Assembly: GCF_003432065.1 (NCBI RefSeq)
Contig: NZ_QWDE01000002.1
Coordinates: 124,001 to 188,000 of the forward strand
Direction of reading: 5' to 3'
Length of the DNA stretch: 64,000 bases
From: Mucilaginibacter terrenus
Lineage (GTDB): Bacteria; Bacteroidota; Bacteroidia; Sphingobacteriales; Sphingobacteriaceae
In this document: positions 5,486-42,981 of the stretch, in pieces
Layout of the letters: each line of letters starts with the position of its first letter
Numbering within the stretch: position 1 is the stretch's first letter
Translations under genes and position numbers: made by a program
The notes under the pieces: model-generated
Told to the model about the DNA's origin: nothing
Database searches by the model: none
The model's input: only the letters and a program-made list of their open reading frames with translations

Positions 5486-6952
5486 TTACAATGCTAAAAG
5501 CTTTTGTATCTCCGCAACTAGTAATTTGTCGCCCGGACGCCTGGCATTGCCGTCAGCAACTTTTCCCTGCTTGTTTATCAGCACATAACGTGGAATTCCG
5601 CTGATCTGGAATTTTTCTGATAAGGCGCTAAACTGATTGTTGCTTAGCAGTACGTTTTCTCCCTTTATGTCCAGAGTCTTTATCATAGCTTTCCATTCAG
5701 CTTCTTTAGATTGTACACCCAGGTACAAAAACACGACGTCTTTACCCGCGAACTTAGCTCTTAGCACTTTGGAGTAAGGCATCTCCGCACGACATGGACT
5801 GCACCATGTTCCCCAAAAATCTATGTATATTACCTTGTTGCGGTATTTGGCAGTCAGGTTGTTTAGCACACTATCTCCCTCGCTGATTGCTTTTTTAAAA
5901 GAGCTTGCAGCCAATGGCTCTGCTATGTGCGCTGCCTGTCGGTAAGCCGCCAACACTTTATTCTTGAAATAGGTATCAGTTACATTTTTTTCAAGAACAC
6001 CGAGGTTTTGCTTTACGGCTTCCAGTTCCTTATCATGTATCAGCTTGTAGAATGCGTTGCAAAGCAGCACATCTTTAGAAAAGCTAAATGGCTGCCTGGC
6101 GAATAAAGCAATCGCACTACTTGCCGGATATTGCTTGCCAAGCTCCTTAGCGGCAAGATACAGGCGGTATTCGGCTATATATTCATTGAAATTAGATGTA
6201 AGCGCTTGTGACGGATCATTCACTGGGAACTGATCAACAAACTTATAATAACTGTCAGGCACTTTAAAGGAATTATCTTTGATCTGCGCATACCTTGGGT
6301 GCAGCCAGGGGTACCGCATCAGGTTTGATGCAAGCCGATACTTAAGGTCTGCCTTGGCCCAATTTACAAAAGTTGGCGAAAGCGCGTGTGCGCTTATGTA
6401 ATTAGCTAAAAATGCACTATCCGCTTTAAACTGCGTAACTACATAGCTTTTATATGCATCAGGGTTTGAGCTATCACGCACGGCAAAGTTGTTTTTTAGT
6501 GCGCGGGCATTGGGTTCCGCACCGTAAATACGGATACTCTCTTTATCAAACGCGGCCCCGTAGGCCAGCAGATCGTAATTGGTTTGTGAATTGCTGCCTT
6601 TAAAGGAAAGCGTTTGCTCCGGGTCACCGGCATTAAACAACAGTTGCATATGATCGCCCGGACTAACAATAATGGTGGAGAGCTTGTCATTATACTCCAT
6701 GTAAATGTCCTGGGTGCCTGTCTTTAGGAAAGCCGTTTTAAATGTACCATCGTTGTTTATCTTAACACGGAGTGTAAGCTCGTCGCCCAAAACAATGTCG
6801 TTGATGTAAAAAAGCACTGCATTTGCAGAATCTTTATACTTTTCAAAGTAATTTACCTTACCGCTTATGTAAACAGAATCGGTACGTAATGCAGATTGTG
6901 GAAATGCCTGTAGCGACAGCAGTATTGCTGCGGATAGGAGTAGGGCCCTCAT
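5486..6952 (-). CDS. TlpA-like thioredoxin-fold protein, exported
   Basis: A hydrophobic signal peptide (residues 1-about 18, ending near FPQS) is followed by about 330 residues of a DUF4369-like and helical region and a C-terminal TlpA/AhpC-TSA thioredoxin domain (about 355-488). The redox motif is WCSPC with cysteines 384 and 387, and the cis-Pro loop is SGIPRYV near 451-457. Such proteins act in the periplasm in disulfide reduction or cytochrome and envelope maintenance; the exact partner is unknown. It is convergent with the slipin and downstream of mfd on the same strand (47-base gap). Confidence 0.88.
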   Translation of the reverse strand: MRALLLSAAILLSLQAFPQSALRTDSVYISGKVNYFEKYKDSANAVLFYINDIVLGDELTLRVKINNDGTFKTAFLKTGTQDIYMEYNDKLSTIIVSPGDHMQLLFNAGDPEQTLSFKGSNSQTNYDLLAYGAAFDKESIRIYGAEPNARALKNNFAVRDSSNPDAYKSYVVTQFKADSAFLANYISAHALSPTFVNWAKADLKYRLASNLMRYPWLHPRYAQIKDNSFKVPDSYYKFVDQFPVNDPSQALTSNFNEYIAEYRLYLAAKELGKQYPASSAIALFARQPFSFSKDVLLCNAFYKLIHDKELEAVKQNLGVLEKNVTDTYFKNKVLAAYRQAAHIAEPLAASSFKKAISEGDSVLNNLTAKYRNKVIYIDFWGTWCSPCRAEMPYSKVLRAKFAGKDVVFLYLGVQSKEAEWKAMIKTLDIKGENVLLSNNQFSALSEKFQISGIPRYVLINKQGKVADGNARRPGDKLLVAEIQKLLAL

Positions 6953-10350: not shown

Positions 10351-10507
10351 AACTGTGCAAATATAAGTAAATGTGTGCTTTCGGGCGTCAGCCGTTTAAT
10401 TATCAGAAATTATAGCAAACAATTTAAGCTATTGTTTACTTTTTAATGATATTCAGCAAGATGCTTGAAATTGTATTTAAAACTTTTTCACCAAACTTTA
10501 TACAAAC

Positions 10508-33565: not shown

Positions 33566-34558
33566 CTATAAACCTAGCCTTGCTGATATTTCCAGCATTC
33601 TTTCAATAGGTTTTACAGCTCTTTCAATGATGTGCCCGGGGACAGTCACCTCGGGCATTTCATTTTTCATACACAGATACAATTTTTCCAATGTATTGCG
33701 CTTCATGTGCGGGCAATCGTTACAGGCGCAAGTATTGTTAGGCGGCGCAGGTATAAACTTTTTACCAGGGTTATCCTTCTCCATCTGGTGGATAATACCG
33801 CTTTCTGTTGCTACAATAAACTCCGTCTCAGGGCTGCTGGTAGCATATTTTAGTATTCCTGTGGTAGATCCTATGTAATCTGCTAATTCTAATATAACCT
33901 GCTCACATTCCGGGTGGGCCAGTATCTTGGCTGCAGGATAACGCTCTTTAAGCTTTGTTATCTTTTCCCTGCTAAATATCTCGTGCACCATGCAGGCGCC
34001 ATTCCACAATACTAAATCTCTGCCAGTTTTCTTTGCGACCCAAGCCCCTAAATTCCTATCCGGTCCGAAGATGATCTTTTGCTCGGGTGGCAGGCTTTCC
34101 ACAATTTGCACCGCATTACTGCTGGTACAAACAATATCGCTAAGTGCTTTTAGTTCGGCAGTGCAATTCACATAGGTAATCACCAGGTGATCAGGGTATT
34201 GCTCTTTAAACTTTTTGAACAAATGCGGGGGACAGCTATCGGCCAGAGAGCAGCCGGCTTTCAGATCCGGTAATAAAACCTTCTTATTTGGTGATAAAAT
34301 TTTAGCTGTTTCGGCCATGAAATGTACACCGGCGAAGACGATAACATCCGCGTCAGTTTTAGCAGCTTGCTGAGAAAGGCCAAGGCTATCGCCAATATAA
34401 TCGGCAATATCCTGAATGTCTCCTTCCTGGTAGTAATGGGCAAGCACAACTGCATTTTTCTCTTTTTTTAACTTTTCTATTTCAGCAAAAAGGTCCAGCG
34501 ATGGGTCTATGTACTCATCATGAAAACCTTTCATTTTTATTTCTTCGAAGATATCCAT
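33566..34558 (-). CDS. nadA: Quinolinate synthase A
   Basis: 330 residues. It condenses iminoaspartate with dihydroxyacetone phosphate to quinolinate in NAD synthesis. The [4Fe-4S] ligand cysteines are visible in [11 protein letters not shown] (Cys103), WNGACMVHE (Cys189) and CACNDCPHM (Cys282). [20 protein letters not shown] is the NadA N-terminal signature. It is divergent from nadB, the enzyme supplying its substrate, across a 408-base AT-rich gap. Confidence 0.97.
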
Positions 34559-34966
34559 TCAACAGTTCAATTAATAATAACTTAATTTTATATAAAGAAA
34601 AAAGCTATTGTTATTAAGGTGTTAGTTATGTTAAGAATTTGTGATACGTGTTACGCTAAAAGTTGTTTTTCCATTTTTACTAACAATTTTAAACGCTTTT
34701 TTATTTTTTACATAGCTCATTTTTAAGCAAGTACAACATTCAAATATTAATTTAAAAACTTATTTGTTAATAATTACTTGCCTAATAAAATGTTAATATT
34801 CACAAAAAAGCGTCGTACAAATTTCTGATAAGTATTAGAAAAATGGCCGCAAAACCGAGTTGTTAACGTGTTAAACTATTTCTAAGTTTTTACTTACACA
34901 AATTTAACACCTTTTGTACCGCTTATCCACATAAGTACTAATTTTACACACCATACATAGATATAC
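34559..34966. other. 408-base AT-rich divergent intergenic region nadA/nadB
   Basis: No credible gene. The stretch is strongly AT-rich, with several TGTTAA/TTAACA copies (34629, 34765, 34791, 34861-34874, 34904) and a TTATCCACA sequence at 34923-34931 that equals the DnaA-box consensus but also forms the inverted repeat CTTAT-CCAC-ATAAG (34922-34935). It must hold the promoters of nadA and nadB and probably their shared control sites. Confidence 0.5.
34913..34946 (+). promoter_or_regulatory. Putative nadB promoter
   Basis: TTTG (34913-34916), 22 bases, then TAATTTTA (34939-34946), a one-mismatch TAnnTTTG. The nadB ATG follows 20 bases later. The CTTATCCACATAAG inverted repeat lies in the spacer, where a repressor would block the promoter. 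Confidence 0.5.
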
Positions 34967-36559
34967 ATGGATAGAACTGTTGATTTCCTGGTTATAGGGT
35001 CGGGCATTGCCGGATTAAGTTTTGCTCTTAAGGCAGCAAAGCACGGTAAGGTTCTGATAGTTACAAAGGCTAATGAAGACGAAAGTAACACTAAGTACGC
35101 CCAGGGCGGCGTTGCGGTAGTTGTTGATAAAAAAGAAGATTCTTTTGAAAAACATATAAATGATACCCTGATTGCAGGTGATGGCCTTTGCGATAAGGAA
35201 GTTGTTGAAGCAGTTGTTAAAGAAGGGCCTGAGCGTATTAGGGAGATTATAGACTACGGGACTAACTTTGATAAGACCAATGATGGTATTTATGACCTGG
35301 CTAAAGAAGGTGGCCACTCCGAATTTAGGGTACTACATTATAAGGATATTACCGGTTTCGAAATTGAGCGGGCCTTGCTGGAAGAGATACACAGGGAACC
35401 TAACATAGAAATATTAACTCACTACTTTGCGGTAGATCTGATAACCCAGCATCACTTGGGTGAAATGGTTAAGAAGTCTTCAGATAACATTACCTGTTAT
35501 GGTATATATGCTTTTAATACCGAAACAAACCAGGTAGAAAAGATACTCTCCAAGGTAACGGTTATGGCATCTGGTGGTGCGGGTCATATCTATTCAGTTA
35601 CTACCAACCCAACCATTGCTACCGGTGATGGCGTGGCTATGGTTTACCGGGCAAAGGGAAAGGTCCGTAATATGGAGTTTATTCAATTCCATCCAACGGC
35701 TTTGTATAACCCTGGTGAATATCCGTCTTTCCTTATATCAGAGGCGGTAAGAGGCTTTGGAGGTATCTTAAAACGTACCAATGGAGAAGAGTTTATGCAG
35801 GAGTATGATCCGCGTAAATCTTTGGCTCCTAGGGATATTGTTGCACGTGCTATAGACGCTGAGATAAAGAAGTCTGGTGAGGACTTTGTCTATCTGGATA
35901 TTCGGCATAAAAAGAAAGCAGATATAATGGAACATTTCCCAAACATATATGCTAAATGCCTGGAAATAGGCCTGGATATGACTAAGGATATGATACCAGT
36001 AGCGCCTGCTTGCCACTATATGTGTGGCGGTGTACTGGTAGATCATGTGGGCAAGTCTTCTATAAAACGTTTGTACGCCTGTGGCGAATGCTCTTCTACC
36101 GGTTTGCATGGCGCTAATCGTCTCGCATCTAATTCATTGCTGGAAGCGCTGGTCTTTGCCCACCGTATATATCAGGATGCTGTTGTGGATTTCCAGGCTA
36201 ATGTGTTGCCGCCAGCTATTCCGGATTGGAACGAGCATGGGGTAAAGTTATCAAACGAGGATATTTTGGTAACGCATAACATTCGTGAGATGCAAAAGCT
36301 GATGAATGATTACGTGGGTATAGTACGGTCTGATTTTAGGCTGGAAAGAGCCATGCGCAGGCTGCGTTTGTTATACGAGGAAACTGAAGATTTTTATAAG
36401 CAAACGAAGTTGTCTGTAAAGCTTTGTGAACTAAGAAACTTAATACAAGTAAGCTATATAGTTGTTAAATCGGCTATGATGCGTAAAGAGAGCCGGGGTT
36501 TACACTACACAACTGATTATCCTGAACATGCTCAGGTACTGGAGGATACAGTATTTTAA
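34967..36559 (+). CDS. nadB: L-aspartate oxidase
   Basis: 530 residues. It oxidises L-aspartate to iminoaspartate for NadA. The FAD-binding dinucleotide fold IGSGIAGLSFALKAAKHGK starts at residue 9. The family active-site segments are SNTKYAQGGVAVV, EFIQFHPTALYNPGE and HYMCGGVLVD, and the substrate and FAD segment is STGLHGANRLASNSLLEALV. A C-terminal helical domain completes it. The pairing with nadA on opposite strands is typical. Confidence 0.96.
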   Translation: MDRTVDFLVIGSGIAGLSFALKAAKHGKVLIVTKANEDESNTKYAQGGVAVVVDKKEDSFEKHINDTLIAGDGLCDKEVVEAVVKEGPERIREIIDYGTNFDKTNDGIYDLAKEGGHSEFRVLHYKDITGFEIERALLEEIHREPNIEILTHYFAVDLITQHHLGEMVKKSSDNITCYGIYAFNTETNQVEKILSKVTVMASGGAGHIYSVTTNPTIATGDGVAMVYRAKGKVRNMEFIQFHPTALYNPGEYPSFLISEAVRGFGGILKRTNGEEFMQEYDPRKSLAPRDIVARAIDAEIKKSGEDFVYLDIRHKKKADIMEHFPNIYAKCLEIGLDMTKDMIPVAPACHYMCGGVLVDHVGKSSIKRLYACGECSSTGLHGANRLASNSLLEALVFAHRIYQDAVVDFQANVLPPAIPDWNEHGVKLSNEDILVTHNIREMQKLMNDYVGIVRSDFRLERAMRRLRLLYEETEDFYKQTKLSVKLCELRNLIQVSYIVVKSAMMRKESRGLHYTTDYPEHAQVLEDTVF

Positions 36560-36564
36560 GATTG

Positions 36565-36637
36565 AGCGGAAAACGGGATTCGAACCCGCGGCCTTCAGTT
36601 TGGGAAACTGATGCTCTACCAGCTGAGCTATTTCCGC
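36565..36637 (-). tRNA. tRNA-Gly (anticodon CCC)
   Basis: Read on the minus strand, the 7-bp acceptor stem GCGGAAA/TTTCCGC, D-arm GCTCAGCTGGTAGAGC, anticodon arm TCAGT-TTCCCAA-ACTGA (anticodon CCC) and T-arm with GGTTCGAATCC fold completely. The discriminator is T. CCA is not encoded, so it is added after transcription. Confidence 0.97.
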
Positions 36638-36713
36638 TTGTATTATGCATCAAACATAGATAAAATGTCGTTTAATCGCTAATTCACTCTTTCAATATTT
36701 ATTAATTACAACC

Positions 36714-37226
36714 ATGCCACTAATCCTGCCAGTAAAAGACAAAACTCCGGTTTGGGGAGATGATTGCTTTATTGCTGAAAACGCTACTATAGTGGGCGAG
36801 GTAGTAATGGGCGCTAACTGTTCAGTGTGGTTTAACGCTGTAATACGTGGCGATGTACACTATATTAAAATAGGTAATAACACCAATATACAGGATGGGG
36901 CTTGCATACACGCCACCTATCTAAAGGCGCCTACTAACATCGGCAATAATGTATCAATAGGGCACAACGCAATTGTACACGGCTGTACCCTGCACGATAA
37001 TGTATTAATAGGTATGGGCGCTATAGTAATGGACAATGCAGTTGTAGAGCGTTATGTGATTATAGGTGCAGGATCTGTAGTGCTTGAACGAACCATTTGT
37101 GAAACGGGCTATTTATATGCGGGTTCCCCGGCAAAAAAAATAAAGCCGCTAACCGATGAGCAAAAAGCTTTATTAGATAAGCTGCCGCAAAATTACATTA
37201 TGTACTCTGGTTGGTTTAAGGATTAG
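36714..37226 (+). CDS. Gamma carbonic anhydrase family protein
   Basis: 170 residues of left-handed beta-helix hexapeptide repeats. Zinc-ligand histidines are in CIHATY (66), GHNAIVHG (84 and 89), the γ-CA pattern, and a C-terminal helix follows (LTDEQKALLDKLPQNYIMYS). Bacterial members (YrdA/PaaY-like) are hydratases or metal-binding trimers; activity is not certain. The stop overlaps the convergent neighbour by 11 bases. Confidence 0.9.
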   Translation: MPLILPVKDKTPVWGDDCFIAENATIVGEVVMGANCSVWFNAVIRGDVHYIKIGNNTNIQDGACIHATYLKAPTNIGNNVSIGHNAIVHGCTLHDNVLIGMGAIVMDNAVVERYVIIGAGSVVLERTICETGYLYAGSPAKKIKPLTDEQKALLDKLPQNYIMYSGWFKD

Positions 37227-38856
37227 TTTGTTCCTTAGGAATATCCAGCACTTCTTCTGCTTCCCAATTTGGCCTTAAGGTTATCTCTTTAGGACTAAGC
37301 CATATGTTCTCCGGATAGGCACGTAGCTTTACATTACCGCTATCCCAGCGGCCATTCTTATTTGCGTCATAAATAACCCTCACAAGGTATTTGCCGGTTA
37401 TATAATTGGTGTATACCAACAAAGTATTTTTTGTTACTACGTCGCTTCTAAGCAGCATTTTATTCGCGTCCAGTAATTCAACTACATAGTTCTTATCAGC
37501 CTCTGGTACATTAACCTTTATAGTAAGCTGACTATAGTTTTCAGGCTTATCAGCTGTGAATGCTTTGCTTGTTCGTTTGTTCTTATCTCCGTATATATTA
37601 GTGAATGCACCTTCATTAAAAATCAGCTGATATTTGCTGTTCTGCCGCCAGCGGTATTTTAAGACATAGCGCCTTATGCTGCCAGTGTCTTTCTGAATTG
37701 TATAGTTAACTGCTGCAGAATCTTCCGTGAGTGATATTTGAGACTGATCAAAACTTTCGATAGGGAAGGAGGCTGTAATAAGCAAGTCGGCATTCGGCCT
37801 CAACCTGTTATCACGATTGATATTGTAAGTAAATAGTAAGTTCCTTTGGAAGCTTTCTTTCCGGCCTTTTAAGAGGCTGGTGGTATCTAATGGCTGTCCG
37901 TTATTAGTAAATGCTACCCTAATAGAGTCGAAATCCATGTTGCGCATGTAAACCAGGGCAGTATCTTTTGTCCTGCTGAATTCTACTATCTTTTGAGCAT
38001 CAACGTTGGCTGGATAAATAATCTTTAAAGCAGGCTTGTCTACCGGTTTGTTAAATACAAAGGACATCTTACCATCTGGTGTAAACTTTCTCTCCGCGAG
38101 CCGGAATTTCTCTGGCGATTGTTTAAATAGCTTTAGTTGTATGTTTGATGTATCCTTATTAACTACAATCGGATTTTTTAGAAACGCAATAAGATCATTA
38201 TCATTATTGAAGATTTTATCGGGACTTACTTCTTTTAAGGCGTAAATACGATAAGTGTCCTCCCGGAGATTATTCAATGAGAAATGGCCAGCTGTATCCG
38301 TAGTCGCGAATATAGAGGGCTTCTTCTTACCGAATAAAAGAGAATCCTGACTTATCGGAAATAAGAAAACTGTAGCATCTTTTTCTTTCTGCTGGGTTGA
38401 TGTATTGATTACATCGCCAGAGATACTCAACGAATCGATATGGTTACCTGTCGAGAAAACGTAGGTGAAGTTTTTGAGGACATTACCCTCGTTAACGTCA
38501 ACTATAGCCTTCCCGAAATTGATAACGTAAGTAGTATTTTTTTGAAGCGTGTCCTTGAAATCAATGATCAGGCTTTTGCTACTGATGTTATATTCCGGTT
38601 GCTTTTCTTGTGCTGGTGTTACGCTTATTTCCTGGTACTGATTTGTCAGTTTGAAATACTCGTCGAAATCCAACCGAATTTGTTTACTCTTAAAATTTCG
38701 GGTCTCATTTTCCGGAGTAGCTTTTAAAACCTTCGGTGGTGTAAGGTCGCGGGGCCCACCCTGCGGCCTTTGCTGAGCAGCGCAGCCTGCAAGTACCAAA
38801 ACCAGGGAAATGTATAAGAGAAATGTAGGTAAATAAAACCGTTTTGATTTTAACAT
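37216..38856 (-). CDS. SbsA-type Ig-like domain lipoprotein
   Basis: 546 residues. The signal peptide ends in a lipobox VLAGCAAQQRPQGGPRD (Cys near 25). An SbsA-like Ig domain (about 35-130: PPKVLKATPENETRNFKSKQ) is followed by further beta-sandwich repeats, including an SdrD B-like or CarboxypepD_reg segment (about 145-215) and a C-terminal Ig-like piece with YDANKNGRWDSG. This layout is common in Bacteroidota envelope lipoproteins; the partner is unknown. It overlaps the gamma carbonic anhydrase stop. Confidence 0.85.
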   Translation of the reverse strand: MLKSKRFYLPTFLLYISLVLVLAGCAAQQRPQGGPRDLTPPKVLKATPENETRNFKSKQIRLDFDEYFKLTNQYQEISVTPAQEKQPEYNISSKSLIIDFKDTLQKNTTYVINFGKAIVDVNEGNVLKNFTYVFSTGNHIDSLSISGDVINTSTQQKEKDATVFLFPISQDSLLFGKKKPSIFATTDTAGHFSLNNLREDTYRIYALKEVSPDKIFNNDNDLIAFLKNPIVVNKDTSNIQLKLFKQSPEKFRLAERKFTPDGKMSFVFNKPVDKPALKIIYPANVDAQKIVEFSRTKDTALVYMRNMDFDSIRVAFTNNGQPLDTTSLLKGRKESFQRNLLFTYNINRDNRLRPNADLLITASFPIESFDQSQISLTEDSAAVNYTIQKDTGSIRRYVLKYRWRQNSKYQLIFNEGAFTNIYGDKNKRTSKAFTADKPENYSQLTIKVNVPEADKNYVVELLDANKMLLRSDVVTKNTLLVYTNYITGKYLVRVIYDANKNGRWDSGNVKLRAYPENIWLSPKEITLRPNWEAEEVLDIPKEQTNP

Positions 38857-38971
38857 CGTTTTTTTGCCTTATGAGGCATTTTTATGTTTTTATGAACGCT
38901 GATATCAAAAATTAGAAAAAGCGTCTTAAATCAAGTATTTTATAAGGTATTGATTATTAGTATCTTATGTA

Positions 38972-40834
38972 TTATCTTGACACATGTACCATTAAAACAG
39001 ACACATCAGACGGGGATACACCCGAAATTCGTGAAGCCTGGCCTAACGTTCTCGGCTTTATCTTCATCAGTTTTTCGCGCGCTTCCTTTGACAAAGAGAC
39101 AAGTTGATGATAATTAAAATTAGGATCAATTGAACGGTCTTCCATTTTCTTCATCTTATCTACAATCTCCAGTTCCTTGATGAAATAACTCTCGTATTTA
39201 ATTTTTATTTCAGCTTGCTCAATTGTTTCTTTATCATAGTTAGCTAAAAGGTCTTGTAATGAGTTATCTACCGATCTCATCTCAACAAAGCCTAATTGCG
39301 GTCGGCTAATCAGGTTAAAGATTTTAGTGTTTTGATTAAGCGGACTTGTACCAACCTGTTCCAATAAACTATTTACTGTAGATGGCTCAATGGTTTTGGC
39401 TTTGGTATAGGCAACTATATCGTCGCTGTCCTTTATCTTTTTATTTACCTTTTCAAGCCGTTCATCTGATATCAAGCCAAGTTCGTGACCCATTGGGCTT
39501 AAACGAATATCTGCATTGTCCTGCCTTAATAATAGGCGGTGTTCTGCACGTGAAGTAAACATTCGGTAAGGCTCTTCTGTTCCCTTGGTAACCAAGTCAT
39601 CTATTAATACACCTATATAAGATTCTGATCTTTTAAGGATCAATTCATGCTGATCATGTATTTTTTGATGTGCGTTTATACCTGCTATAAAACCCTGCGA
39701 TGCGGCTTCTTCGTAACCAGTAGTGCCATTTATTTGTCCTGCAAAATATAAGTTGCTTACCAATTTGGTTTCGAGCGTTAGCCCTAGCTGCGTAGGAGGG
39801 AAGTAATCGTACTCAATAGCATATCCGGGGCGGAACATTTTAGCTTTTTCAAAGCCTGGTATTTGTATCAGCGCGCGATATTGGACATCTTCCGGAAGCG
39901 AGGTAGAAAAGCCGTTTACATAAATTTCTACCGTGTTCCAGCCCTCTGGTTCTACAAATATCTGATGACGGTCCCTTTCTGCAAAGCGATTGATCTTGTC
40001 TTCTATAGAAGGGCAGTAACGAGGACCCAAGCCTTTAATGCGTCCCGTAAACATAGGCGACTTTTCGAAGCCTTCTTTTAGTGTCTCGTGTACTTTATCG
40101 TTAGTATAGGTTATCCAGCAACAGCGTTGGTCAGTAGCCAGCTCAACATCTGTGAAAGAAAAACGGCCACGTTCTTCATCGCCCCATTGTTCTTCCATCA
40201 GGCTGTAGTTTAAACTGCGACCGTCAACGCGCGGCGGGGTACCAGTCTTCATTCTGCCAGATTCAAAACCCAAAGAAACCAACTGCTCAGTTAAACCTGT
40301 AGCTGCTTTCTCACCCGTTCTTCCTCCGCCAAAACGCTTTTCACCTATGTGGATTATTCCATTTAGAAACGTGCCGTTTGTAAGAACTACAGCATCGGCT
40401 TCAATCTCGACACCTATAGATGTGCGTACGCCTGCAACTGTATTGCCTTTAACCAGAACAGATGTTACGGTGTCTTGCCAAAAGTCTACATTAGGTGTTT
40501 TCTCCAGTGCAATACGCCATTCTTCCGCAAAACGTATACGATCACTTTGTGCTCTTGGGCTCCACATTGCAGGACCTTTAGAACGGTTTAGCATTCTAAA
40601 TTGAAGCGATGTTTTATCCGTTATAATACCTGAATATCCGCCTAGTGCATCAATCTCACGTACTATCTGTCCTTTAGCTACGCCACCCATGGCCGGGTTG
40701 CAACTCATTTGGGCAATTGTACCCATATTCATTGTAATCAACAATACAGATGAACCCAGGTTAGCTGCAGCTGCAGCTGCCTCACATCCGGCATGGCCGG
40801 CACCAACTATTATTACGTTATATTTTTTAAACAT
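38972..40834 (-). CDS. mnmG: tRNA uridine-5-carboxymethylaminomethyl modification enzyme MnmG
   Basis: 620 residues. With MnmE it builds the cmnm5 group on wobble uridine. The N-terminal FAD fold [19 protein letters not shown] and the family motifs [20 protein letters not shown] and YCPSIEDK are clear, and the C-terminal helical domain ends in SDVSVL. The ATG at 40834 is chosen because it puts the FAD motif at the family distance; an ATG at 40843 (3 residues longer) starts inside a parS site. mnmE is not in the window. Confidence 0.96.
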
Positions 40835-40842
40835 ACTATTCA

Positions 40843-40858
40843 TGTTCCACGTGGAACA
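40843..40858. promoter_or_regulatory. parS site 1 (ParB-binding centromere palindrome)
   Basis: TGTTCCACGTGGAACA is a perfect 16-bp palindrome and a form of the bacterial parS consensus, extended to 18 bp by flanking A and T. It lies 9 bases upstream of the preferred mnmG start. parS sites near mnmG/gidA are common. No parA or parB is in the window. Confidence 0.88.
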
Positions 40859-40875
40859 TACCTCATTAAGTGTAT

Positions 40876-41115
40876 CTATGTTCCACGTGGAACTTTAACA
40901 AACGAGTAAATTGCGAAACTTGCCCAAATGGCTTCTAAAACGATGAAAGGGTAGAAACTTATCAGGTAAGATGAATAACAGCAAAGCCCTGCACCAACAA
41001 AATTCATCCCACTATACCAGCGGCTGTTTGCACTTAGCTTTTTATTCAAGTTCAGCACAAACGCAATAAGTAACACAATAACGCCTGCCGAAGCAATGAT
41101 ATCCGACGCTTTCAT
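40876..41115 (-). CDS. Small membrane protein, CBU_0592-like
   Basis: 79 residues with three hydrophobic helices (about 5-22, 36-53, 56-74). The segment [20 protein letters not shown] and the ending [16 protein letters not shown] match the CBU_0592-like domain of small bacterial membrane proteins. Function unknown. The gene starts directly after the ABC-F stop (TAAATG), and its last codons (VPRGT, stop) are made of the second parS palindrome. Confidence 0.75.
40879..40894. promoter_or_regulatory. parS site 2, embedded in coding sequence
   Basis: TGTTCCACGTGGAACT matches the parS palindrome with one change at the last base. Its centre is 36 bp from that of parS site 1. It encodes the Val-Pro-Arg-Gly-Thr end of the small membrane protein on the minus strand. 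Confidence 0.82.
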
Positions 41116-42981
41116 TTAGGCTTCTTTTAATTCTGTTAGTTCCATCCACCTTAACGATTTTAAGTCTAGTTCATTGCTTATTTTCTCTGCTTCTTTAGAT
41201 AAATCTATAATCTCTGCATTGTTGAGTCCCGTTGTGTTTAGTTTATCGCTTACAGCTTTCAATTTAGCTTCCAGATCTGCAATTTCTTGTTCTACTGTTT
41301 GGAGTTCTTTCTCCTCTTTATAACTGAGCTTTGATTTTTTTACAGCCTCAACAGCTTTCACCGGTTCAGGTGCAGGCTTTTTTGCTTGTTGTTTAATTTC
41401 TTCAAGCTCTAACCGGTATGACGAATAGTTTCCGTTGTAAATCTTTACCTGTCCGTTTCCTTCCATGATGAACAGTTGATCTGTCATTTTATCAAGTAAG
41501 TACCTGTCGTGCGATACCAGCATTAAAATGCCGGGATAATTAGTTAAGAACTCTTCCAACACATTCAGTGTGTCAATATCCAGGTCGTTTGTTGGCTCAT
41601 CCAGAATCAGGAAATTTGGATTCTTCATCAGGATGCTCATTAAGTGCAGCCTTTTCTTTTCACCACCGCTCAGCTTGGCTATCATGCCGTACTGCTTATT
41701 AGGCGGAAATAAGAATAACGTAAGCAGGGCAGAAGCTGATATCATTTTACCGTCAGCCATTGTTATAAACTCGGCAACGTTTTTTACAACATCAATTACA
41801 CGCTCATCGTCTTTAAAAGATAACCCTGCCTGGTTAAAATAGCCGATAACAGTTGTTTCTCCTTTTACTATTTCGCCTTTGTCCGGGTGGAGTAGTCCGG
41901 TAATCAAATTAAGCAGAGTAGATTTACCGGATCCGTTTTTACCTGCAAGCCCAATACGATCTCCTTTTTTGAAGATATAGTTGAAGTCGTTTATATACGT
42001 ATTGCCGTTAAAGCCTTTTACAACATGGTGCAGTTCCATAATTTTATTTCCCTGCCTTGCTGTTTTTACGCTAAGCTCTACTGTTTGCTTGCCGCCATTA
42101 TTCTTCGTCTTTTCTTCCAGGTCGTAAAAAGCATCTATTCGCGATTTGGATTTGGTTCCACGAGCCTTTGGCTGTCGCCTCATCCATTCCAACTCTTTAC
42201 GAAGCAAGTTGCTGTTCTTTTGAAAAGTAGCCTCGTCAGCGGCTTCGCGCTCTGCCTTCTTCTCAAGGTAGTAAGCGTAGTTACCTACATAAGGGACTAT
42301 TTTACCGCGGTCTATTTCTAATATTTCGTTACAAACATTATCCAGGAAATACCTGTCGTGAGTTACCATTAAAATGGTTTTGTTGCCTTCGGTAAGTAAC
42401 TTCTCCAGCCATTCAATGGTATCAATATCTAAATGGTTGGTTGGCTCATCCAGCACATACAACTCAGGGTCTTCTATCAACAGCTTAGCTAAAGCCAAAC
42501 GTTTCTTTTGTCCACCTGATAAGGTGTTAATGTGCTGATTAAGATGATGGATGTCCAAACGACCCAGGATGGTTTTAATTTGATATTCATATTCCCAGGC
42601 ATCTATTTCGCTCATCTCCTCCATCACCTTATCTAAAGCTTTGGAATTTTCAGGATCATTTTCCAGCAGCTCTTCATATCTGCGTATAAGCTGCTGCTGT
42701 ATGTTGTCTGCATGGAAAATATAATCGCTGATAGTAACCGCATTCTTAAAATGCGGATCTTGCTCCAGGTAACCTATCTTAAGATCCCGTGCCTGAGCTA
42801 CTTTACCTTCTGTAGGTTTTATAGCGCCCGACAAAATTTTTAACAATGTGGACTTGCCTGCGCCATTGATGCCCACCAATGCTACGCGACGGCCGCGATT
42901 AATGCCGATGGTAAGGTTTTTAAATAACCAAACATCATGAAATGACTGTCCTAAATTCTCTGCTGAAATAAATGTACTCAC
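41116..42981 (-). CDS. ABC-F family ATPase
   Basis: 621 residues with two ABC modules. Walker A GINGAGKST (37-45) and GKNGSGKST, and LSGGQKKRLALAKLL and LSGGEKKRL signatures. A charged interdomain linker (RKELEWMRRQPKARGTKSKS) and a C-terminal coiled coil mark an ABC-F (Uup/EttA-type) ribosome factor rather than a transporter. The start is GTG at 42981 overlapping the previous stop (GTGA). Uup-type members can affect transposon excision or translation; the exact subclass is not certain. Confidence 0.93.
   Translation of the reverse strand: MSTFISAENLGQSFHDVWLFKNLTIGINRGRRVALVGINGAGKSTLLKILSGAIKPTEGKVAQARDLKIGYLEQDPHFKNAVTISDYIFHADNIQQQLIRRYEELLENDPENSKALDKVMEEMSEIDAWEYEYQIKTILGRLDIHHLNQHINTLSGGQKKRLALAKLLIEDPELYVLDEPTNHLDIDTIEWLEKLLTEGNKTILMVTHDRYFLDNVCNEILEIDRGKIVPYVGNYAYYLEKKAEREAADEATFQKNSNLLRKELEWMRRQPKARGTKSKSRIDAFYDLEEKTKNNGGKQTVELSVKTARQGNKIMELHHVVKGFNGNTYINDFNYIFKKGDRIGLAGKNGSGKSTLLNLITGLLHPDKGEIVKGETTVIGYFNQAGLSFKDDERVIDVVKNVAEFITMADGKMISASALLTLFLFPPNKQYGMIAKLSGGEKKRLHLMSILMKNPNFLILDEPTNDLDIDTLNVLEEFLTNYPGILMLVSHDRYLLDKMTDQLFIMEGNGQVKIYNGNYSSYRLELEEIKQQAKKPAPEPVKAVEAVKKSKLSYKEEKELQTVEQEIADLEAKLKAVSDKLNTTGLNNAEIIDLSKEAEKISNELDLKSLRWMELTELKEA

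Follow-up and report, generated by a model that had tools for sequence, protein, structure and literature searches.

Two parS sites lie beside the tRNA-modification gene mnmG (gidA) in the genome of Mucilaginibacter terrenus, and what is worth telling about them is the depth of the linkage between parS and mnmG in a phylum, the Bacteroidota, in which parAB and dnaA lie elsewhere. We consider it very probable that the pair is the chromosomal centromere, that it is served in trans by ParB from a distant parAB locus, and that its placement at mnmG is the remnant of an ancestral unit.

The general chromosomal parS consensus of ParABS systems is TGTTNCACGTGNAACA, a 16-bp palindrome. In the window analysed here, a stretch of 64 kb (positions 124001-188000 of contig 2, in an assembly of 4,615,028 bases in 15 contigs that is 99.93% complete), site 1 (40843..40858, strandless) reads TGTTCCACGTGGAACA, an exact palindrome that matches the consensus exactly and has no other exact copy in the assembly, while site 2 (40879..40894, also strandless) departs from the consensus by one change and reads AGTTCCACGTGGAACA on the minus strand. 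Both are thus found where the initial annotation had placed them, and both match the general bacterial parS as it had claimed. When the window is scanned with up to three mismatches, these two sites alone are recovered, against a mean of 0.20 matches in dinucleotide shuffles of the window, where two matches were reached in 1 of 100 shuffles. A genome-wide search for the 16-mer, which the annotation had proposed, shows that copies are not scattered: no third copy within one mismatch exists across the whole 4.6-Mb assembly, and the one extra match at two mismatches, on contig 1, lacks the core GTTNCACGTGNAAC. Likewise, no third parS was found in the gap 3' of mnmG (38857-38971). Judged by their sequence, the sites are a known kind of element, a real pair of canonical chromosomal parS sites that was rightly recognised and whose members are predicted ParB targets. 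For comparison, the parS pattern used in PMC10197239, in the sections drawn on here, is TGTTTCACGTGAAACA with two mismatches allowed.

The locus itself is a row of four genes on the minus strand. The first of these we take to be an NAD-epimerase-like gene; it is followed by an ABC ATPase gene (41116..42981; Pfam ABC_tran and ABC_tran_Xtn), presumably of the ABC-F type to go by its name and kept in many loci of the host family, by a 79-aa ORF (40876..41115), which is the small membrane protein of the initial annotation, and by mnmG (38972..40834; Pfam GIDA, 2e-159). The ORF matches no Pfam family at E 0.001. Site 2 makes up its last five codons (GTT CCA CGT GGA ACA, VPRGT), in agreement with the annotation, and homologues of the ORF adjoin parS in part of the host family; the frame through parS is identical in this ORF and in the 15 homologues compared with it, 16 in all, with some ORFs extending a few codons further. 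Site 1 occupies the gap just 5' of mnmG. The overlap that had been proposed for the pair therefore stands for the neighbouring coding end and probably falls for the start of mnmG, which is probably at 40834 rather than at 40843: the ATG at 40843, the first of the ORF and the one that overlaps site 1, is not kept in four relatives of the same genus, an in-frame ATG at 40834-40832 is kept in all four, and two of the four loci carry a GGAGG between the parS region and the equivalent of the latter. With the conserved start probably at 40834, site 1 would abut it. In three of these four loci the palindromes align while the spacer and the flanks diverge; the fourth (L050) has a longer gap, with the sites further upstream. 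Among the named loci listed, the most similar MnmG, with 91% identity over 554 aa, belongs to a Mucilaginibacter MAG. As a separate observation, the order nadA, nadB, a gamma-carbonic-anhydrase-like gene, a Big_5 protein, mnmG and parS (window positions 33566-42981) is kept in the relatives G051, G007, G029 and G058 (L090, L110, L170 and L326-L327), where nadA, nadB and carbonic anhydrase are what we take these genes to be.

The genome does encode a ParB, whose absence the initial annotation had named as an argument against its own reading: there is a single match (TIGR00180, 1.1e-51), on the same contig as the sites and 726 kb away from them, with a ParA-like ORF directly 5' of it. A full-length SMC is encoded as well (3.1e-304). 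ParB is found in 60 of 61 genomes of the host family, with exactly one match in 57 of them, and in every one of 39 sampled Bacteroidota families (one genome each); in none of the 39 does it lie close to mnmG, as compared by eye and with the distance undefined where the two are on different contigs. What characterises a chromosomal parS of a ParABS system is thus at hand in sequence (a 16-bp palindrome), small number, clustering (36 bp apart), nearness to the origin and the presence of ParA and ParB genes. The differences are that the genes for binding lie 726 kb off and that the pair sits beside mnmG without parAB. By comparison with the classical gidA-gidB-parA-parB origin operon, parS is beside mnmG here too, whereas parAB does not adjoin it and dnaA is distant.

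That the locus is close to the replication origin, as had been suspected from the pair alone, is supported by the turning point of the GC skew near it in three near-complete relatives (G051, G007 and G029), each sampled, like the host, at 20 stretches of 20 kb per genome. In G051, which belongs to the same genus, the skew changes sign at the locus, from negative to positive, and along a contiguous stretch of 400 kb the cumulative skew is lowest 30-50 kb away from parS; in G029 the change of sign occurs between 0 and +220 kb of parS and in G007 between +216 and +432 kb. The locus is therefore placed near the origin to within about 50 kb in one relative and 0.2-0.4 Mb in two. The contig of the window agrees weakly with this placement, as skew is slightly below zero in the three samples to the left of parS and positive in the parS sample and in 15 of 16 to its right. 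Skew at third codon positions proved too noisy to sharpen the position.

The expectation that dnaA would serve as a landmark near parS was not borne out. In the host genome dnaA is on another contig, and in the five relatives that have dnaA and parS on one contig it lies 0.36-1.0 Mb away (898 kb in G051, 1015 kb in G007, 735 kb in G029, 707 kb in G058 and 358 kb in G039). As a marker of the origin dnaA was rejected: neither G007 nor G029 shows a skew turn there, and in G051 the closest sample has negative skew, a single positive one standing isolated about 170 kb past the gene. The window contains 8 DnaA boxes, where 7.2 are expected. The window is richest in AT in the gap between the divergent nadA and nadB (34559-34966), 6 kb from parS, where the best 300 bp reach 78% AT and a perfect DnaA box is present (TTATCCACA at 34923); we do not call this gap oriC, as the aligned bases in G051 (TTATTAACA) differ from the box at two positions. 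The picture of skew and dnaA fits what is described in the sections of PMC10197239 considered here, namely parS clusters at the origin in 12 gut bacteria, including two Bacteroidetes, with an origin that need not coincide with dnaA, though it should be borne in mind that its authors chose the origin among skew turns by nearness to parS.

Linkage to mnmG is the rule in the host family. The motif TGTTYCACGTGRAACA is present in 102 of its 151 genomes, and in the 30 loci examined, from 30 genomes with the exact motif, mnmG is beside the site every time. Of the 49 genomes in which no exact copy occurs, ten were searched at one mismatch, and eight of these ten have a near-match beside mnmG; of the other two, G016 has two near-matches, the examined one lacking mnmG, and G052 has no site within one mismatch in its genome, yet ParB is present. 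At the other extreme, G058 carries seven cores in 2.2 kb, the last of them about 8 bp before the mnmG match.

The same holds across the phylum. The consensus TGTTNCACGTGNAACA occurs in 145 of 198 genomes drawn from it, and in 23 of 30 loci examined mnmG is within 1.5 kb; of the remaining seven, one is at a contig end, and another (L072, from G221) comes from a genome with a second core 153 bp from mnmG. For a sample not chosen by its result, we took the first-listed genome of each of 39 families and located mnmG and the core GTTNCACGTGNAAC, reading the core sites of five genomes (four without listed sites, one incomplete) from their DNA. The core is found in 37 of the 39 genomes, 94 times in all, against 5 matches in the 39 genomes for a reversed-pattern control. 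In 31 families a core is no more than 200 bp from the mnmG match, and the number rises to 33 if distances up to 5 kb are admitted; 72 of 91 located cores fall within the latter distance, and in 13 families mnmG has a core at up to 200 bp on each of its sides. The six families without linkage within 5 kb all have ParB. In two (G186 and G256) the cores are on another contig, in G324 a core is 12 kb from mnmG, with one of its three cores unlocated, and in G162 none lies within about 9 kb, with both of its cores unlocated; in G335 and G325, a whole-genome search returns no core anywhere, which reflects either a diverged centromere or an incomplete assembly. We also observed loci in which six to seven parS cores are packed into about 0.5 kb beside mnmG (L075, L077 and L081, of the same class and one family), and cores inside the mnmG coding region (L313 at position 10420, from G292, and L233 at position 5697).

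Outside the phylum, parS at mnmG mostly comes with parB in the loci compared. A scan of named genomes for parS just upstream of mnmG gave at least 120 stretches, 80 of which are listed; 31 of these 80 are from outside the Bacteroidota, with taxa as named in the records and with Chlorobi and Ignavibacteria counted with the Bacteroidota, and the outside taxa among the matches listed include Alphaproteobacteria, Bacteriovoracaceae, Clostridia, Nitrospirae, Zixibacteria, Calditrichaeota and others. For those listed loci that extend 4.5 kb or more beyond the mnmG start in the downstream direction, a search with the host ParB (tblastn) shows parB following mnmG in 15 of 16 loci outside the Bacteroidota versus 0 of 12 inside, a contrast that is conditional because the loci were selected for parS at mnmG. 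The exception, L192 from a Calditrichaeota MAG, resembles the Bacteroidota in having parS on both sides of mnmG and no parB downstream within the locus. Flanking on both sides is seen in 11 of the 23 outside loci that hold the whole of mnmG, again among the matches listed. The M. terrenus pair shares with the gidA-gidB-parA-parB loci of Bartonella, Sphingomonas, Bacteriovoracaceae and Clostridia a parS just upstream of mnmG, and in part of those loci parS is also found just downstream; what sets the Bacteroidota apart is that parA and parB do not come after mnmG.

In the sections of the literature drawn on here, classic chromosomal ParBs are said to tend to be encoded with GidA, MnmE and GidB (PMC10653881), and gidA, gidB, parA and parB figure in what may have been an ancestral origin cluster (PMC2099444). 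These sequences are most simply read as descendants of an ancestral unit that had parS at mnmG as its head and that the parAB of the Bacteroidota would have left. The placement of parS at mnmG is old, and we infer that the Bacteroidota kept it there after parAB had left. In the proposed ancestral unit, mnmG-(rsmG)-parA-parB, rsmG would take its place between mnmG and parA.

The mechanism that we propose extrapolates binding, spreading and loading from the family to which the system belongs. We infer that the product of the genome's one parB, encoded in a parAB locus 726 kb away, binds the pair in trans, where it would presumably close as a CTP clamp and slide over mnmG and its neighbours. ParA would then move ParB, bringing about the separation of the origins, and ParB may help to load the SMC of this genome; by ParA movement and SMC loading together, the origin region would therefore be separated first after replication. 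The sites would be next to mnmG because this gene headed the ancestral origin-region unit, whereas in the Bacteroidota parAB and dnaA may have come to lie elsewhere, parS staying with mnmG near the origin. The sites may also have an effect on mnmG expression.

Such an effect could also be the chief role of the sites, as an operator in the mnmG leader through which ParB, or another regulator of the same palindrome, tunes mnmG, with segregation secondary. Site 1 does end right before mnmG both here and in many relatives, and the gene is flanked on both sides within 200 bp in a third of the families sampled (13 of 39). One operator would not be expected to form arrays of as many as seven sites, to lie within mnmG or as far as kilobases from it, or to vary in start-to-start spacing from 20 to 705 bp, however, and six phylum loci have an exact site without mnmG within 1.5 kb. 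Moreover, mnmG is apparently read from the same-strand genes upstream, and the gidA promoter region of Pseudomonas aeruginosa showed no regulation by ParA or ParB when tested in E. coli, a result cited as unpublished in the part of PMC3909081 considered here; on balance we find an operator role improbable. More improbable still is a role of the palindrome as an RNA hairpin. The transcript of a perfect palindrome in a leader could form such a structure, but sites also occur downstream of mnmG or kilobases off, and in the 38 of 130 upstream sites whose halves are unlike, the C-A orientation (pairing broken) is found 22 times and the U-G orientation (pairing kept) 16 times, so that there is no preference for RNA pairing; the central CACGTG, where the loop and its closing pairs would be, was fixed in the search pattern, and conservation there is not informative.

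Chance, or a by-product of the coding of the 79-aa ORF, might be considered since site 2 is coding (VPRGT). Against this stand the shuffle mean of 0.20 even at three mismatches, the core in 37 of 39 families, near mnmG in 33 and often without the 79-aa ORF, and the palindromes that are kept at the genus level while spacer and flanks diverge, and we give this explanation practically no weight. A further idea goes beyond the centromere reading that we prefer: mnmG and parS may be held together across the Bacteroidota by selection of their own, beyond inheritance, with ParB, loaded next to mnmG or at both of its ends, coupling mnmG expression to origin copy number or segregation. We regard this as rather unlikely; if true, it would account for the survival of this pair alone when the origin operon broke up, and for the flanking of mnmG in distant phyla.

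The main survey of parS sites is reportedly that of Livny et al. 2007, which may already list such sites. Our search by title and the start of abstracts found no description of parS at mnmG in Bacteroidota, which is weak evidence of absence; gidA and gidB do not occur in the main text of PMC6315104. A close comparison is with the gut Bacteroidetes B. caecimuris and M. intestinale, which, according to the sections of PMC10197239 considered here, share with our host a parS cluster at the skew-defined origin and dnaA as an unreliable landmark. They differ in having no recognised condensin, whereas the host genome encodes a full-length SMC, and mnmG does not figure in those sections' account of origin-marking parS clusters.

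For the Bacteroidota, where dnaA fails, parS sites beside mnmG provide a simple candidate landmark of the origin region. The locus illustrates clearly how a centromere can stay put while the partition genes come to lie elsewhere, and whether the link between mnmG and parS is a relic or selected becomes testable.
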